Assembly: GCA_026929865.2 (NCBI GenBank)
Contig: CM049408.1
Location: 1,426,001-1,490,000 of the forward strand
DNA length: 64,000 nucleotides
Direction of reading: 5' to 3'
From: Hyperoplus lanceolatus
Taxonomy: Eukaryota; Chordata; Actinopteri; Uranoscopiformes; Ammodytidae
A program made the position numbers and the translations under genes. The notes under the pieces were generated by a model. That model was not told the DNA's origin and searched no databases. It saw only the letters and a program-made list of their open reading frames with translations. Each line of letters begins with the position of its first letter. Position 1 is the stretch's first letter. Shown in pieces: positions 906 to 53,710 of this stretch.

Positions 906-939
906 GTCCGATGCATGGACATATAAAGAGGTCCGATGC
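906..939 (+). mobile_element. micro-insertion with 9-bp target duplication (copy 1)
   Basis: The 9-mer GTCCGATGC occurs at 906-914 and again at 931-939. Between them is ATGGACATATAAAGAG (915-930). The same core string is found between unrelated direct duplications at 13167-13199, 36313-36345 and (as CATGGACCTATAAG) 47299-47328. The exact insert/TSD boundary can slide by one base. No ORF or hairpin is present. Confidence 0.7.
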
Positions 940-12477: not shown

Positions 12478-13713
12478 CTATCTATGGTCTGTGCCTGTGG
12501 CTCCATCGCCCCCTGGTGGCAATGCAGACCTGCAAACTCATAGGAGGTGAAAAAGGTGACAAACACCCGACCCTTCTAAAGGTACGAACACACTGCACTC
12601 CACGGCGGTTGGCCGCGCGAATCGCAGGTTCCGCGCCGCGTGATCATATTGGGTCATATTGTGTCCGCCGCCCGACCAGAGTAGCATTCTCCTACTCTGG
12701 GGATATGCTGGTGCTAACCGGTGCTGAGAACACCAGTCTGCTGTGCTGATGGTGCTTTACCCAAGCTAACTGGTGCTAACTCGGTTCATAAAGCAAAACT
12801 GATAGCTGTACACAGCAGGCAACAGACACAGAGGCTATTCACAGAAGTTATGGGAGCAAACTGTGACTATTATGTTTTCATCCATCTTAATTTCCTCTGT
12901 CAGTCGTCCCGAAGCGAGTGACGTCGGGAGGAGCTCAACCAGAGCTGCCAAGTCTCACTCTTTGGCCGTGAGACACACGCAAATCAACCAGTTCACACTC
13001 TCACACGCCACACCTCAACGTTCTCACGCGGAGAAATTAATCCCCAAAATAACATTTGTTTAGCGGGACTTTTATTTAAAATGTCTTATTTTGAAAAGCT
13101 AACTGACTTCCTCTTTCTGAACGCGCTTTAACGTTATGCTTTGATGTGCACTGTGCATTCATAGTGGGAGGCGAGCATGGACATATAAAGGAGGCGAGCC
13201 CCCTACCTACACCTTCTCTTCCAAGGTGTGTGTTGATAGCATAGATAGTATAAGGTTGATAGCGTGCCAAGTTACCGCTGATAAGAATTGTGTCCCCGCC
13301 GGCCGGTGAGCGCGCATGCATCAAACATATTAACCCTTCAATCTCACTCAAGTAAATTCAGAAGATCTTTGGATCGTTTTGTATATTGTTTTTGGTAATT
13401 TAGTTTGAAAATTAGGTTTGCAAAGTAACAAATGGCTCATCCGCCAATAAAAATGCTTTTATTCTTCTGTGTAATGAACTGTAGCCTGTGTATTGCACAT
13501 TTATAGCACTTTTCACAACACAAATCAAGGTAGCCTAAGAGGAGGGACCAAGTAACCCAGATGTTTTATTTTATCCTAGTAGTTTGCATTGGTGTTGAAC
13601 TGTTCCCTAATTTTTTTCTTCTTTGAATAAAGCCTAATGCTGCTAGTAAAATACCACCAGCCACTCAACCCTCAATAGTAGACATGATATAGAATAATTA
13701 CCTTTATTACAGT
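12478..13713. other. unassigned stretch with one micro-insertion
   Basis: No recognisable gene. At about 12580 a GC-rich segment (CCGCGCGAATCGCAGG) suggests a DNA-transposon end, but no partner was found. The micro-insertion at 13167-13199 lies in it. Confidence 0.35.
13167..13199 (+). mobile_element. micro-insertion with 10-bp target duplication (copy 2)
   Basis: GGAGGCGAGC at 13167-13176 is repeated exactly at 13190-13199. Between them lies ATGGACATATAAA (13177-13189). If the insert is taken as the common 15-mer CATGGACATATAAAG, the duplication is the 8-mer GAGGCGAG. Confidence 0.75.
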
Positions 13714-21019: not shown

Positions 21020-21804
21020 CTCCTATTATAGATCAGAGCAACACACAACAATGCTTTCTTATCCTCTTCCATAGCTGATCTGAAAAGAATCTTAATATTT
21101 CCCCCAAAAAAAATTTTTTTTTTCTTTCCCTCCAAAATGTTGCATTTTGCTTAGAACACAATAGTTAACTCTCTCTGACAGAACCATTTATTAATGTATT
21201 GCCTTATTTTAAACATAAATACACATTTAAAAACAACCAATTAAAAGCATTTTGATCTTGATTTTATTTTATTATTTTAATGAAAAGGGTCTTGCATTAT
21301 GTAGGTTATTAAACAAATAGTGTACATGCAAATTACATTGTGGAACCAACCATTGAAGCCTGTTTTCTAGGGGAATTATTTTTCAGACGGGACCATATAT
21401 TTATATCCAATTTTATTCTACATCCACGCTTATATCTAGGGATTACAACTTTTAATAGTTACATGTATTTAAATTAAATGTGTTTACAGAAGATTCTGCG
21501 CACATTTGGGCGGGTTCTGACGTCCATCGAAGCACCACCCCGTCATTGACGCCGCGGTCAGCAGCGGTTGCAGCCGCTTTTAAAAACGCCTGGCCCCTCA
21601 CAAAGCCGCGCGGTAGCGAGGCGGTTATCAGGGCGGTTGCCGCGCGGCTTTGGAAAAGGGCCTTTAGGAGGTGAGCTATTTCATTGCTAGGGCTATGAAG
21701 CTGCATAGTATAGACATTAATATTGCCAGCTGCTATCGAAATGGTAAAAAATTCTCTGGGGTTGCTAGAAATGTTTTATGTCAAAATGGGGTCACAGCCA
21801 AAAG
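21020..21804. other. unassigned; possible right end of the Harbinger element
   Basis: From 21545 to 21660 the DNA is GC-rich with repeated GCCGCG/GCGGTT strings, as expected near a transposon end or CpG-rich promoter, but I found no clear terminal repeat matching the left side near 18.1 kb. Confidence 0.35.
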
Positions 21805-23782: not shown

Positions 23783-24075
23783 TACACCCAGTGTTTTCTG
23801 CTATTGCGTCCAATGTCCAGCTGGGTGAAAATAGTAGCCAGCCGAGATCCCGCCCCTCCAAGGGGGGTCCGGGCATAGACATTATAAAAATTCTATAAAA
23901 ATGTATAATGTCTATGGGTACGGGGGTATGCCCCCCCGGGAGATTTTTTTAAGTTTTTAAAGTGAAATGCATGAATCTGGTGCACTTTGATAGAGAAATT
24001 AAGAATTTTGCATGAAAAAAATGGAGACACTGTGCATGGTATCTGCACATTTTTAAAGTTCAAATTTAAAGACAT
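23783..24075 (+). mobile_element. diverged left part of a CAGTGTTTTC hAT-like element
   Basis: CAGTGTTTTCTGC, then the GGGGTCCGG/ATGCCCCCCCGG hairpin and ATCTGGTGCACTTTGA, match the order seen inside the 10890-12477 element. The hairpin has been split by the 43-bp micro-MITE. A further scrap (GAATCTGGTGCACTTTGAGA) is at 46436-46455. Confidence 0.55.
23866..23924. mobile_element. 43-bp micro-MITE with 13-bp TIRs and 8-bp TSD
   Basis: The insert at 23874-23916 begins CATAGACATTATA and ends TATAATGTCTATG, exact 13-bp inverted repeats around a 17-bp AT-rich core. Its flanks are GGTCCGGG (23866-23873) and GGTACGGG (23917-23924), 7 of 8 identical. Removing the insert and one flank restores the GGGGTCCGGGGG.ATGCCCC order seen uninterrupted at about 10929-10955. 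The terminal CATAGACATTATA resembles the CATGGACATATAAAG of the four smaller insertions. Confidence 0.8.
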
Positions 24076-36261: not shown

Positions 36262-36459
36262 GTGGAACAATGTCGGCACACAGGTTATTGTTTCACCGCG
36301 ATCGCCTATGTAGGAGCCAACCATGGACATATAAAGGGAGCCAACACGTTGAACATGCATACGCATTTGAAAAGGCACCATCCAGGTCTTACTATCACCG
36401 TTACTGTGAAGAAAAATCGAGCTGTGCAAACACAGACAGTATTTTCTTTTTTATACTGA
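36262..36459 (+). pseudogene. BED zinc-finger remnant of a hAT transposase
   Basis: The frame reads TAIAYVGAN, eight extra residues HGHIKGAN, then TLNMHTHLKRHHPG. The N-x-x-x-H-x-x-x-x-H-H pattern is the second half of a BED finger, used by hAT transposases to bind DNA. The eight residues come from a 24-bp micro-insertion (15 bp plus 9-bp duplication) that keeps the frame. The Cys pair of the finger and the catalytic domain are not recognisable. Confidence 0.6.
36313..36345 (+). mobile_element. micro-insertion with 9-bp target duplication (copy 3)
   Basis: GGAGCCAAC at 36313-36321 is repeated exactly at 36337-36345, with CATGGACATATAAAG (36322-36336) between. It adds 24 bp, in frame, to the BED finger of the surrounding hAT. 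Confidence 0.8.
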
Positions 36460-41546: not shown

Positions 41547-44500
41547 TTACCCATTTGCTGCCCTATTCTTCTTCTTCTTCTGTTTGTCTGCATCCCTTTT
41601 ATTCTCCATTTCTACACCTGTCTTCTCCAACTCTCCTTTATCCGTCACTTCTTCCTCTTCTTGCTCTCCCTCCTTCTCATCTCTCGTCATGGTTTCTATC
41701 TCCCCCTCTTTCTCCACCTCTCCTTTCTCCATCACTTCAGGCTCTTCTCTCTCAACCTCTGTCTCCATCTCTTCCTCATTCCTCCTCTCCTCCGCCTCTA
41801 CAACTTCACCTCCCTCACCCTGTTCTCTTTGGCCATCCTCTGTCCTCTCTTGCTGCCCCATTTGGTCAGGCTGCCATGCTTTGAAAAAACAACAACCAAT
41901 CAAAACATTTGGGATGTAGTACATGGTTTTAAATGTAGGTAAACAAGGGGTCATGGTCTGTACTGAAATGTATTGTATTACAGAGGCATACATGTATTGC
42001 TATTTTGTTGTGTCATACCTTCAAGCATGCCTTCAAAAAGGCACATCATCCTCTCCAGGACTGCATGTGCCATTGGCGGCAGCTCGTATGGGCACTGCAG
42101 CTGAGCTGACCATTTATTGGTCCTTGGTGTGTACTTTCCCCACATAAATAAGGGAAAGTACCCCAGGGCCTTCAGTTTCTCCACCTTAATACAAATATAT
42201 GAATATTAGCTCAGAAAGATTTCCAAGGATCTAGTGTGAAGTTACTGCAGATGCAAACTGAACATTTGCTACAGCTGTAGCATTATATTAAAAGCATTTT
42301 ACTGGTCAAGCGTGAGCTGATGTGTATTTTGAAACACAGACAGGAATGTAGCATAGTGTCAGTCACTATAGCAGCATGCCTTCAGTGTGAAGTTCTATGT
42401 TGTGAAAGAAGACCACAGAAAGCTTGGAACTATAGTTCACACCAAAAGCTTTATGACAGTGGCTGCTGTCAGTCATTCATTTTCTATTGAATGGAGTTGT
42501 ACAGTAGGCAGGATCGAATTCTGTGTAATATTTTACTATTTATACATAAAATAGCTCCTTACGGTCTGAAAAATTGCAAATGCATTTGCAATTGCATGAT
42601 ACTGCCATAGTTAATGCTTCCCTGTACAATGTAAATTACTTTTTTTCAAAAGACAAACAACATTTTTGTTACCATCAGGGCTGTGTTATCAAACACTTTT
42701 GCCTGGTTGCGGGACTTTTTGGTTTTCTCCGCCCATTCCTTGGCCCTGGCTCTGAAGCCTTTCATCCGGGCAGACTGCCTTGACTTCAGTTCCAAAAGCT
42801 TGCCACACTGAATAAGAGAGAGAGACACAAAAAAGCATGGTATGACAAAAATTAGTAACAGGTAGGTTATAAGCTGTATCCCTGAGGAATGATAATAATA
42901 TTATAGGCAGGGTGCTAGACAGCAAGTTAGGACAACCAATAAACAGAACCATAGGACTCACTAAAACTATCCATATCTATAAAAAAATTATGAAATTTAA
43001 GAATGCCCATTACCTGGCTAGATACATAATGCATTATTGCTTGATTTTGAGGAGATGTAAAACTGAATTGAATGTTAATGCAAAACATGGATAATCGAAT
43101 AATTTGCATTCATTATTGCAACAGAACTATTTTCTTTTCTTTAATAGACCTTTGTAATAGGGTGTTATTTAAACAAGCCAAAAGTCAAACATCCAATTGC
43201 AACAGATAGTCTTCCATCATGCGGGAAGTAAAATGTTATGAAATAACATAATAAGAAATAATAAAACATTTTTAAGGTGCAACAAAACCAAGTACCCCTG
43301 ACTGCGGCCCGCAGACGGACGTTGAGGGGGAGGAGACGTTGAGGGGGAGGAGACATTGAGGGGGCCGGCACATTGAGGGGGGGGAGCTTGAGCAGGCGCT
43401 CGCTGTCTGCTTGTCCGTCTCTTTCTCACACATTCACTCGTAGAGGTCCGCTGCAGCCGTTAAGCTAGCGGTAGCCCACGCTCTTTATTAAATGTAACAG
43501 AGAGATGGCACGGGAGTATTATGACTTGCTATCTTTCTTGCTGCGTACCATCGACCTATTATAAAGTTAAGCATAGCCTAAACGACTTTATTTGCATGAA
43601 GAACGCATTCTTACATCCGGTTTAGTGATATCAAAATAAGAGTCCTGCATGCAGCAGTAGCATAGGCCCTACTTGGAATAATAACCGGATATAAGAAACA
43701 TTTAGATAATTTTATGTTTAACCTATAGTATTAACCGGTTAAATATCTTCTTAAAGGTCAACAGGTTAACAATGGACATCCCTTCCTACTATGTTGATTG
43801 CTTTTGCTATCTTGTAACAGTTCACTTATGAGGACATAGATGATCCTGTGAGTGTTAAATTAGTGTTGTGTCTCCCAAGGGTCAGCAATGAGATCTATAC
43901 TTACAAAAGCAAGTATATATGTATGTACAATGATTAAGTGTGCACTGTAAACAATGTGACATGTGCTAAAGAGAACTCCTGTACCTGTCTGTCTGTGACG
44001 GTTGCAGGCCCAGCTGCCTATGAATTAAGTAAGAGTCAAAATAAGATATGGGGAACTATGAAGGGGTCACTGTGACCCCAAGGTATGACCTTAACAGATG
44101 CAATGTGACCACATTCAAGGCTTAAAAATATACCTCAATTAGACATAACTAAATGCTACAGGTGTGACGCACATTAAGTTACACCAATCACAGCAGCCCT
44201 AACAACAGTCTTATTATTCAACAGAACAATGTAAAAATAACAACTACAAAAAATACATAGTAAACTATTAACAGAAAAGATAACTAATCAATAAAGTGTA
44301 GAACAATCAAAGAACACATATTGTCCTTATTTTTACCTTATACTCTCTCTTGCCATAGTCACCATAATTCACTATGGATGAGTCTATTTTAACAGCAACA
44401 AAGGGACAATTGCACAATCTATTAAAACCGTTAATATTGTTTATTTTCACAAGCTGTAGTGTTTCAGGGCTGACCTAAAATGTGACTCAATAACAAAAGT

Positions 44501-46019
44501 ATCTTAAAATAAAGATGTTTGAATTGTTAAATGATTAATTGCATTTTTTACAATATTTCCAGACACACACTGCTGTAAGTAGACTATAGATGACACTTGT
44601 GAACCCTTACTGAAAAGATTTCCTTCCTGAACAAGGACAGGATTTTCCAGGCATATAACACTTTGAGGCTTTAACTGATCATGGATACATGTATGCACAG
44701 CAAGGCGGCGATGCCTCCTGGGCATTAACTGTAGTGTTTAATATACGGTGTTAAGGTGCTGGAAAACAAACATTTAAATTAAAGCGGTCAAACTTATGTT
44801 TCCACAGTGTCTGCACTTGATTGTGACCTTGCCAGACTGACACCGGCTGCCATTCTCAGGCGAATTTGCGGCCCAAAACACGCCCCTTGCCATCGAATAA
44901 TTCAATTAATATTACTAATAATTAATACACACATATTCAAGGAAAAGAACAGGATGGCTGTAACAGCATGTATATTCTGTGGATACAATCCATAATAGCT
45001 ATGGGTCTTCACTCTTCACAAGAAAGGGGTATTTAATATGCCAGGTCAGCTTGATAAAATGTTGTTTCACAAAATTTATTCGAGTCATTCCACCAATCCG
45101 GTACTGTGATCGTGAAGTTATCTATTCATTAAAATTAATTATTAGAATTGTTTTTACCTAATGCATGTTGAAAGCAATTTGAGTCTAAAATAAACTCTAA
45201 TTTGTATATGTCCCCTTCAACCCCGTTACCATTTTCAACCCTGTTACCCTAGTTTCTGTCACACCTTTATGGTATGTATTCCTTTAAGCTTATAAAAAAT
45301 ATATACTGTTTGTTTAACTATGTCTTAAATATTTATGGCAATCATAAGAATATTGATTTTAGTTAAAAATATGAAGTAAAACCACATCTTTGATCAAAAA
45401 TGGTGTGATCGCTGGCACAAAAAGGGCCCATTCCCTGTATGCTACTGCTCCATGCAGGACTCTTATTTTGATATTGCTAAACTGGATGTAACAAGGACTC
45501 TTATTTTGGTATTACTACGGATGTAACAATGCCAACTGCCAAAGTCAGACCAAACTACAGCAAGTAGTATAGGCTACGTTTAACATTATAATAGGTACCC
45601 TGCAAGAAAGATAGCCTGTCACAACACTCCCGTGCCATGTGTTTGTATTTAATTAACAGCGTGGGCTCCCGCTAGCTTAACATAGCGCTAGCATTAGCCT
45701 ACTTGAGGAGTGAATGTGAGAGACTGAGCGCCCCGCCGTCCCCCTCAATGTGGTCTTAGGCTCCCCCCCCTCAATGTGCCGGCCCCCTCAATGTCTCCTC
45801 CCCCTCAACGTTGGCTGCGGGCCGCAGTCAGGGGCTTCTCAACAAAACTGAGTTTTTGGTATATTGAACTTATGTCTACTCTCCAAACTCTACTTTTATT
45901 GTCAGACAAAACAGTATATTAGACTACAGTACATTATGTACCTTGGTGCATCTTTTATTGCCACAGTTGGATTTCTCCTGGCAATGGGGGCACTGTCTAG
46001 TTGTTGACCCGCCTGGCAT
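41547..46019 (-). CDS. four-exon zinc-ribbon/acidic protein, probably transposon-borne
   Basis: On the minus strand four exons join in phase. Exon 1 (46019-45942) is MPGGSTTRQCPHCQEKSNCG then NKRCTK. Exon 2 (42807-42673) is CGKLLELKSRQSARMKGFRA onward, so CxxC...CxxC completes a zinc ribbon across the junction, followed by a basic helix. Exon 3 (42184-42019) contains LKALGYFPLFMWGKYTPRT and ends MMCLFEGMLE. Exon 4 (41878-41547) is a long Glu/Lys-rich stretch (over 40% E and K) ending NRAANG, where GGGTAAGT can be either the stop or another donor. All four exons are open, and the total is about 236 residues. It faces the KDZ gene tail to tail, which suggests a second gene of the same element, possibly a DNA-binding or chromatin partner. 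That is inference, as I do not recognise the protein. Intron 1 contains the fold-back element. Confidence 0.6.
43289..45839. mobile_element. 2.55-kb fold-back transposon with about 390-bp inverted arms
   Basis: The arms 43289-43680 and 45440-45839 are inverted copies. Each starts with CCCCTGACTGCGGCCCGCAG and then a minisatellite of GTTGAGGGGGAGGAGAC-like units, later GCTAGCGG.AGCCCACGCT and AATAAGAGTCCTGCATG. CAACAAAAC lies on both sides (43280-43288, 45840-45848), an 8-9-bp duplication, and the uninterrupted target is at about 46691. The middle is unique and AT-rich with no convincing transposase. The right arm has an internal duplication of about 40 bp around AATAAGAGTCC. Confidence 0.85.
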
Positions 46020-46792
46020 TTTCTGTACTATACAAAGAAAATAACAAAAATCATTAAATTATTGAGACAATGACTGTTAATTATTGCATTATACAAGTAG
46101 GTCTACTGCATTAATTTCACTGTGATCTTAAGTGCATCGTGCATCTGCGTGCAACTAGTAATGTCTGGCTAAAATAAACCACCGCCAAATATGTTAGCAG
46201 CTCTCAGATCGGCTTGAACAGTGAATGTACGTGAGCAGTAAACTCCTAAACTGATCTGGCGTCAGCCAAGTCACCGACTGCGGGATCAGTAATGTGTAGT
46301 TTACAGCGTGACTCAAGGAGACCACGATAGCGTACAGCATTGCATAAAACATATACATATGTGTGCATAACACTCCTCGTTCTGCAGTCATTATTTTAAG
46401 GGAGTTTACAGGTACCTTTTTAAAGTGAAATGCATGAATCTGGTGCACTTTGAGAGGGAAATTAAGAGGCTAAATCTGAGGAATTTTTTGTAAAACATGG
46501 ATAATCGAATAATTTGCATTCATTACTGCAACAGAACAATTTTATTTTCTTTAATAGACCTTTGTAATAGGGTGTTATTTAAACAAGCCAAAAGAAAAAC
46601 ATCCAATTGCAACAGATAGTTTCCCATCATGCGGGAAGTAAAATGTTATGAAATAACATAATAAGAAATAATTAAAAAAAAATTAAGGTGCAACAAAACT
46701 GAGTTTTTGGTATGATGAACTTATGTCTACTCTCCAAACTCTACTTTTATTGTCAGACAAAACAGTATATTAGACTACAGTACATTATGTAC

Positions 46793-46870
46793 CTTGGTGC
46801 ATCTTTTATTGCCACAGTTGGATTTCTCCTGGCAATGGGGGCACTGTCTAGTTGTTGACCCGCCTGGCAT
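46793..46870 (-). CDS. second copy of exon 1 of the zinc-ribbon gene
   Basis: This repeats the 26-codon exon at 45942-46019 at an offset of exactly 851 bp, with start codon and GT donor kept. It belongs to the 5' duplication and could act as an alternative first exon. Confidence 0.6.
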
Positions 46871-47298
46871 TTTCTGTACTATACAAAGAAAATAACAAAA
46901 ATCATTAAATTATTGAGACAATGACTGTTAATTATTGCATTATACAAGTAGGCCTACTACATTCATTTCACTGTGATCTTAAGTGCATCGTGCATCTGCT
47001 TGCAACTAGTAATGTCTGGCTGAAATAAACCACCGCTAAATATGTTAGCAGCTCTCAGATCGGCTTGAACAGTGAACGTACGTGAGCAGTTAACTCCTAA
47101 ATTGATCTGGCGTCAGCCAAGTCACCAACTGCGGGATTGGTAATGTGTATTTTACAACGTGAATCAAGGAGACCACGATAGAGTACAGCATTGCATAAAA
47201 CATATATAGATGTGTGCATAACACTCCTCTTTTTGTTTTCATGATGTTAAGGGAGTTCACAGGTTTCAGGTTTCATATTGTCACCACTCCAATTCGGA

Positions 47299-47328
47299 AT
47301 CAAAGCCATGGACCTATAAGATCAAAGC
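47299..47328 (+). mobile_element. micro-insertion with 8-bp target duplication (copy 4)
   Basis: ATCAAAGC at 47299-47306 is repeated at 47321-47328, with CATGGACCTATAAG between. The related repeat at 33831-34245 (other strand) lacks the 22 bp and reads straight through, GCGCGCTTTGATTCCGAACT, so this is a demonstrable insertion. Confidence 0.85.
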
Positions 47329-47959: not shown

Positions 47960-48465
47960 CGATCGCGCATATTATTATTGTGTAACCATAGTGTGTAACT
48001 AACAACATGAAACAAGGAGACCACGATGGCAAAGAGTTGCATAACACATATATACAGGTGTGCATAGACAGGCCTTTACTGCAGGCACGATGTAAAGGTA
48101 GTAAGCCCCTTCCGGGCCGGCCGGTTGTATGGCGCTGTCACTGACAGCAACAGCCTCATATTGCCAGGCTGAATGACAGCCTGTCAGTCGTGTCAAATCA
48201 AGACAATAAGTATTTATTGACTTTAAACTGTAACAGGACTGGAGACTGTACAAATAAGCGTAGGCTTATGTCAATGGGGAAAAGGCCATAGGTCTACAGG
48301 CTAAGCAAAAAAAGCCGCCCACTGTTACAATATGTAGCCTAACGTAATGCAGACACTTCTGAAATCCATTCAATCACACTTGCTGCAATTAAGACAAGTG
48401 ACCACGTAAGGTAACATCAAAAAAGGTAGCATATGTTACCGGTGATGCTACGGTCGTTTAACCTT
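47960..48465. other. unassigned stretch
   Basis: At 48010-48070 there is a diverged piece related to the repeat at 46300-46380 (ACAAGGAGACCACGATGGC). No gene is seen. Confidence 0.4.
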
Positions 48466-52865: not shown

Positions 52866-53710
52866 ACACTCAACAAAAATATAAACGCAACACTTTTGTT
52901 TTTGCTCCCATTTTTCATTAGATGGACTTAAAGATCTAAAATTCATTCCAGATACACAATTGTACCATTTCTCTCAAACATTGTTCACAAATCTGTCTAA
53001 ATGTGTGATAGTGAGCACTTCTGCTTTGCTGAGATAATCCATCCCACCTCACAGGTGTGCCACATCAAGATGCTGATCTGACATCATGATTAGTGCACAG
53101 GTGTGCCTTAAACTGTCCACAATAAAAGGCCACTCTAAAATGTGCATTTTTTGCTTTATTGGGGGTCTGGGGACTCAGAACCAGTCAGTATCTGGTGTGA
53201 CCACCATTTGCCTCATGCAGTGCAAAACGTAGAGTTTATCAGATTGTCAATTGTGACCTGTGGAATGTTGGTCCACTCCACTTCAATGGCTGTGCGAAGT
53301 TGCTGGAGACGGCTTATGGTGGAGAAATGAACATTCAATGCACGAGCAACAGATCTGGTTGACATTCCTGCTGTCAGCATGCCAATTGCACGCTCCCTCA
53401 ATGCTTGTGGCATTTTGCTTTGAGACAAAACTGCACATTTCAGGGTGGCCTTTTATTGTGGACAGTCTAAGGCACACCTGTGCACTAATCATGATGTCAA
53501 ATCAGCATCTTGATGTGGCACACCTGTGAGGTGGGATGGATTATCTCAGCAAAGCAGAAGTGCTCACTATCACACATTTAGACGGATTTGTGAACAATGT
53601 TTGAGAGAAATGGTACAATTGTGTATCTGGAATGAATTTTAGATCTTTAAGTCCATCTCATGAAAAATGGGAGCAAAAACAAAAGTGTTGCGTTATATTT
53701 TTGTTGAGTG

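Follow-up and report, generated by a model that had tools for sequence, protein, structure and literature searches.

The window, a stretch of 64,000 nucleotides from Hyperoplus lanceolatus, holds five sites at which a short insert lies between two copies of an 8-bp sequence that differs from site to site, together with a 43-bp palindromic site (Table 1). Four of the five had been reported by a first-pass annotation made from the letters of the window, and all four proved real and correctly placed, their inserts of 14–17 nt each lying between two identical 8-bp copies. The repeats of 9–10 bp described there resolve into an 8-bp duplication, which stands, and matching neighbouring bases, which do not belong to it. 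The fifth site (insert 13240–13254) had been overlooked and begins 50 bp past the end of the 13176–13190 insert. All five lie on the + strand, which is not significant with n = 5.

Table 1. Short inserts and palindromic site in the window, with their 8-bp duplications
Feature	Span	Strand	Left duplication	Insert	Right duplication
Candidate excision scar	906..938	+	GTCCGATG (906-913)	CATGGACATATAAAGAG (914-930)	931-938
Candidate excision scar	13168..13198	+	GAGGCGAG (13168-13175)	CATGGACATATAAAG (13176-13190)	13191-13198
Candidate excision scar	13232..13262	+	GTTGATAG (13232-13239)	CATAGATAGTATAAG (13240-13254)	13255-13262
Candidate excision scar	36314..36345	+	GAGCCAAC (36314-36321)	CATGGACATATAAAGG (36322-36337)	36338-36345
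Candidate excision scar	47299..47328	+	ATCAAAGC (47299-47306)	CATGGACCTATAAG (47307-47320)	47321-47328
43-bp palindromic site	23866..23924	.	GGTCCGGG (one mismatch to right)	palindrome 23874-23916	GGTACGGG

Several other features of the window were recorded. A 190-aa reading frame (262–834), which we take to resemble a LINE endonuclease, lies directly upstream of the 906 site. At 47979–47999 a 5-nt insert, CATAG, is flanked by exact 8-bp repeats (TGTGTAAC on either side); it may represent another scar like the five, though a very short one. Identical pairs of short repeats at 45893–46086 and 46744–46937 are offset by 851 bp, suggesting a local duplication, and G-rich and C-rich tandem arrays at 43318–43381 and 45739–45808 appear to be inverted copies of each other. 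Inverted repeats with CACAGGTGTGCC and GGCACACCTGTG (53050–53107 and 53471–53528) also occur in an element nested in one genomic copy of the repeat around the 13168 site (L228, below). A search of the whole 64-kb window against Rfam gave no match.

Four of the five sites lie within repeats, whose copies, where the flanks match exactly, could be scored as empty or filled. An empty state, with one duplication unit and no insert, was present at four of the five sites. At the 906 site 34 of 36 copies were empty and 2 filled, and at the 13232 site 63 of 65 were empty and 2 filled; at the 13168 site there were 5 empty copies, one like the window and one with a shortened insert (n = 7), and at the 36314 site one empty copy and 39 filled (n = 40). 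For the 47299 site an exact search for a second copy found the window locus alone. The occurrence of the same insert in different targets, together with the existence of empty sites, rules out tandem slippage and bears out the original argument that one conserved insert between differing 8-bp target duplications is not a slippage product. The 36314 insert sits inside a young multicopy repeat (its 221-bp neighbourhood gives 41 matches) and the 13168 insert is common to further copies of its own host repeat; since 39 of 40 copies of the 36314 repeat carry the insert, such inserts evidently travel with their hosts. Such copying raises any tally of short dispersed strings, and 16 of 16 sampled inserts need not represent 16 events; distinct duplications were therefore counted instead.

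Copies of the 13168-site repeat also supplied two candidates that we rejected. The variant CATGGAAG was considered as an alternative scar, but similar small deletions occur in other copies of the host repeat and it was read as decay. Two long occupants of the site (L228 on contig C5 and L227 on contig C1) were considered as unexcised precursors and turned out to be other elements inserted into the short insert itself; the one in L228 splits CATGGACATATAAAG at its TA and appears, by reading, to be Tc1-like. A full P element still residing at a target of one of the inserts was sought at this site and not found.

The association of the insert with duplications exceeds chance. In the window, an exact 8-bp duplication around a 12–22-nt insert was found at 5 of 71 CAT[AG]GA contexts, compared with 292 of 127,922 positions (binomial, 7e-7). 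Allowing up to two mismatches, the 12-mer core showed no excess in the window (14 copies vs 9.6 expected; 11 of 100 shuffles reached 14); three copies are exact, and it is these, rather than the mismatch-tolerant count, that are the meaningful signal for the core. Across the 806.7-Mb genome, CATGGACATATAAAG with at most one mismatch has 5408 copies, against 100 for the reversed control, with balanced strands (2750 forward, 2658 reverse). From the first 100 places listed for CATGGACATATAAAG, 97 were fetched, giving 93 distinct contexts; among these listed matches, 27 are full element ends, 10 have an exact duplication, 20 have one with a single mismatch and 36 have neither. The first-pass annotation had proposed scoring flanking duplications against controls; the 10 exact duplications in 93 listed contexts compare with 68 at 21,265 control positions from the same loci, where a further 316 showed one mismatch. 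In unrelated viral contigs the same 15-mer could be tested in 101 copies, and none had an exact duplication.

The main insert, CATGGACATATAAAG, coincides exactly with the left end of a full-size element, CATGGACATATAAAG...TCCTGGGGGCCTG; the proposal that the inserts form a micro-transposon family was not upheld. The 27 full ends among the contexts listed continue as CATGGACATATAAAGAAATGGACACC..., each with different DNA on its left. Right ends were traced by following the left 8-bp flank downstream to a constant ...TCCTGGGGGCCTG and the same 8 bp, which delimited elements of 536 bp (GTGTATGG), 526 bp (GGCTGTGT) and 440 bp (GTCTAGAG) with exact duplications and a fourth of 466 bp whose duplication has a mismatch (AATGTACC/GATGTACC). 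Genome-wide there are 857 left ends (27-mer, at most two mismatches) and 827 right ends (13-mer, exact; control 5). When 19 left/right pairs were chosen by proximity on contig C1 and both flanks compared, all 19 had an 8-bp duplication, 18 of them exact and one with a single mismatch, whereas wrong pairings of these ends came within one mismatch in 0 of 342 cases. The paired elements measure 323–894 bp, plus one of 3092 bp. The CATGGAC elements thus form a true family of non-autonomous transposons, which make 8-bp duplications and whose two ends differ. The ends are not inverted copies of each other: the right end reads CAGGCCCCCAGGAC inward and the left end is the P-type CATGGACATATAAAGAAATGGACACC. 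Symmetric inverted ends had been considered, but a facing pair on contig C2 (18421152–18424841) had no common duplication, and the true right end was therefore sought from the duplications. For two left ends (L103 and L107) no partner was found within 1.5 kb. A 3.1-kb copy was ruled out as an autonomous parent; it carries a nested reading frame that is, by reading, Tc1-like.

The family also has a member of 10,879 bp (C1:3032383–3043261; 446 bp of it unread), with the CATGGAC left end (L158) and the TCCTGGGGGCCTG right end (L221) both present. The non-autonomous copies are 85–96% identical to it at both termini and beside them. Its open reading pieces (L149) gave Pfam matches over the cut-off to THAP, Tnp_P_element HTH, TNP-like RNaseH_N, GBD, RNaseH_C and THAP9_C, and the predicted transposase gene points towards the CATGGAC end, away from the right end. 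The P-element/THAP9 RNaseH domain PF21787 has 19 matches in the genome, one of them in this element. Another led to a second family, represented by a 6381-bp element (L143) with an exact duplication, GTTGGGGT, and inverted ends, CATAGACATTATAAAGGATAGACGC, perfect over 25 bp; by the same Pfam procedure its open reading pieces contain THAP, RNaseH_N, GBD and RNaseH_C. This type of end has 519 copies (at most two mismatches) and at least 20 facing pairs 118 bp to 11 kb apart, duplications being checked for L143 only, and it aligns with the CATGGAC end in 21 of 27 columns by our own count.

The parent elements can thus be assigned to the P superfamily by transposase and duplication, and in one family also by inverted ends. 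They show the P-type arrangement of THAP, HTH and an RNaseH domain split by a GTP-binding domain, as predicted from open reading pieces, and the 8-bp duplication, which in the 10.9-kb copy has decayed to 6 of 8 positions (CCGCAGAC/CCGCAGCG). The first-pass annotation had favoured an hAT-type enzyme, and on that view the elements would be hAT transposons and the inserts their footprints or deletion products. The 8-bp duplication, the terminal CA...TG and a target motif compatible with hobo GTNCGNAC agree with this, but the elements examined that bear these ends encode a P/THAP9-type transposase within them, not an hAT one. Moreover, hAT excision leaves a few altered bases at the duplications, not the 15–18 nt of one end retained here. 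We regard an hAT origin as very improbable.

Neither the duplication nor the target sequence separates the two superfamilies: an 8-bp duplication is common to hobo and P, and the hobo motif is similar to that of P (PMC3276498). The duplications of 13 inserts and of 21 full CATGGAC elements show a common palindromic tendency, GTCNNGAC, and match the Drosophila P motif GTCCGGAC at 3.46 of 8 and 3.33 of 8 positions, respectively, compared with 1.79 for random sequence (0 of 5000 draws each). Because the hobo motif is so similar, this likeness supports a common origin of inserts and elements rather than P over hAT.

The first-pass annotation had linked the short inserts to the 43-bp palindromic version, and this link is supported; both arms match ends of the second P family. 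The palindrome starts with 15 nt and finishes with 13 nt of the L143-type end, with 15 nt between. It may be read as a two-ended scar or as an extreme deletion derivative of an L143-type element, in which 15 nt of one perfect inverted end and 13 nt of the other would have been kept.

The anatomy of the inserts bears on how they arose. At 13 distinct targets with exact duplications, the insert measures 19 nt at five, 17 nt at one, 16 nt at one, 15 nt at four and 14 nt at two; all 13 start with CAT and finish in G. One side is fixed at the left end of the full element, the other varies, and the element's second end is absent. In 8 of the 13 the terminal G cannot, by our own reading, extend the left end and equals the last base of the element. 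The five 19-nt inserts are exactly 18 nt of the left end plus G, so that the modal tail is 18 nt, not 17. In the one-mismatch contexts (8 distinct targets), the best placement gives a final G in 4 inserts and another base in 4, again by our own reading. Both duplications are kept around terminal sequence of the element, as in an excision scar, and we conclude that the inserts of the window are very probably scars of departed P-superfamily (THAP9-type) DNA transposons.

Further inserts of this kind were seen elsewhere. One copy of the 13168-site repeat (L237) has a second, inverted scar of 18 nt plus G adjoining the first, and a locus with CATAGACAAGAAAG between two copies of GTCAAGCA (L168) resembles such a scar minus five bases. 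Two loci around P transposase matches (L145:8041 and L146:1874) both hold CATAGATAGTATAAG between GTTACATG duplications, so that one P-related sequence bears the scar of another.

Two other origins have to be weighed against excision. In the first, the 14–19-nt unit was itself integrated by a transposase making an 8-bp staggered cut. Insertion with duplication into a formerly empty site is real, and the uniform CAT start and final G give the insert the look of a unit; yet only one side varies in length (14, 15, 16, 17, 19 nt), the opposite side coinciding throughout with the end of a known element, whose second end is missing, so that the two defined ends of a MITE or micro-transposon are lacking. 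There are, besides, many full-size elements that have this left end, this duplication length and this target motif, and we know of no transposase with a 15-nt substrate. Integration of the unit itself is accordingly very unlikely, and of the two earlier suggestions, minimal substrates or end-only remnants, the second is supported and the first is not, given the one-sided length variation, the exact left end and the absent second end. The other origin is internal deletion, in which a resident element was reduced to its left tip and one base by slippage or by gap repair that was broken off. Interrupted gap repair does give rise to internal deletions in P elements, some scars are shortened (L232, L235) and the 43-bp site could be such a product. 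However, the end points of deletions should scatter, yet 5 of 13 exact targets stop at 18 nt plus G, near the known cut, and right-only products are missing among the right ends surveyed on contig C1 (below). We consider this origin very improbable.

An excision origin would run as follows. First, insertion of a P-like element duplicated 8 bp of target, as is shown by the duplications, by the empty sites and by full elements that agree with the scars in duplication length and target motif. Second, the transposase would cut at the border on one strand and about 17–18 nt inward on its partner, leaving a 3' tail on the donor flank; this step is suggested by known P-element biochemistry and by the positions where the inserts end. 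The two cuts of P transposase lie at the border on one strand and 17 bp inside the element on its partner, the target duplication is 8 bp, and in Drosophila the donor gap is mended by homologous repair or end joining (PMC7776569). Given the 17-bp inside cut and end joining, a scar is therefore expected to retain the duplication on either side and about 17 nt of an end at most. Third, end joining would close the gap and keep both duplications together with 13–18 nt from the left end and, in most cases, one terminal G; the resulting sequence is what we observe, and cutting, tail and joining are the processes that would account for it. Lastly, some scars situated within other repeats have been copied along with them, as seen at the 36314 site.

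The largest gap in the excision account is that no target, among the copies searched at the 13168 site, was seen both with the full element and with the scar. Several observations also count against reading the inserts as excision scars. First, Drosophila biochemistry allows either end to be kept, yet none of the 28 right 13-mers on contig C1 up to 19.7 Mb was a scar, in a search that scars with less than 13 nt of the right end escape; 22 of the 28 pair with a left end, five are long right ends with no recognised left end, and one (L225) is part of a related element with a CATGCACATATA start. Second, among the matches listed, the 36 of 93 contexts mentioned above have neither a duplication nor a full end. 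Third, the terminal G is not universal, the modal tail is one base longer than 17, and the target motif also fits hobo GTNCGNAC. Lastly, flanking deletions were larger with zebrafish THAP9 in cell assays than with the Drosophila transposase (PMC10983969), whereas the scars here have both duplications intact.

The CATGGAC family is the one that leaves most scars, and these keep its left end only, which was unexpected. With equal handling of the two ends, right-end scars ought to be equally frequent; the 5408 copies of the left 15-mer stand against 857 full left ends and 827 right 13-mers. The right end either is cut almost flush or loses its tail. One strand cut after base 1 and the other after base 18 would be the Drosophila 17-nt stagger shifted by one. 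We tentatively propose, as a possibility that we would put at somewhat below even, that this is a P family with two non-homologous ends and asymmetric excision, in which a long stagger at the left end yields a tail that is always kept, the right end is either cut nearly flush or trimmed, and 18 nt plus G is the stereotyped scar; such scars, spread inside other repeats, would form a readable fossil record of P excision and repair in a vertebrate-type genome.

Comparison with known systems shows both likeness and difference. End-joined excision scars retaining part of a P end are known from Drosophila. The Drosophila P element shares the 8-bp duplication, the transposase domains and the cut 17 bp inside the end (PMC7776569) and a target motif resembling GTCCGGAC (PMC3276498), but its end sequences differ, the right end of the main family here is not an inverted copy of the left, and the scars here have one end only, a modal tail of 18 nt plus G and copies multiplied inside other repeats. 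Zebrafish Pdre2/THAP9 has 8-bp duplications, CAT-starting ends (CATACCTGTCAAC) and a THAP9-type transposase, and inverted 13-bp ends unlike those of the CATGGAC family (PMC10983969); past CAT there is little similarity between the ends. In Anopheles, autonomous P elements likewise have short non-autonomous relatives (P-MITEs) with perfect 8-bp duplications, but with inverted ends of 27–31 bp on both sides, and the word "footprint" is absent from the searched text of that account (PMC1562414). Hobo shares the 8-bp duplication and a GT...AC target motif (PMC3276498) and differs in having a transposase of another superfamily, from which a long retained end is not expected. No natural P scars were recognised in the open-licence literature searched.

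Read as excision scars, the odd micro-transposon reveals in nature how a transposase cuts and how the break is repaired. Each scar would be the outcome of one excision, with host repeats supplying the empty site alongside, and from scars one can count and date the departures of elements otherwise without trace. The asymmetric ends pose a testable question, namely how two unlike ends are brought together and cut by a P-type transposase.
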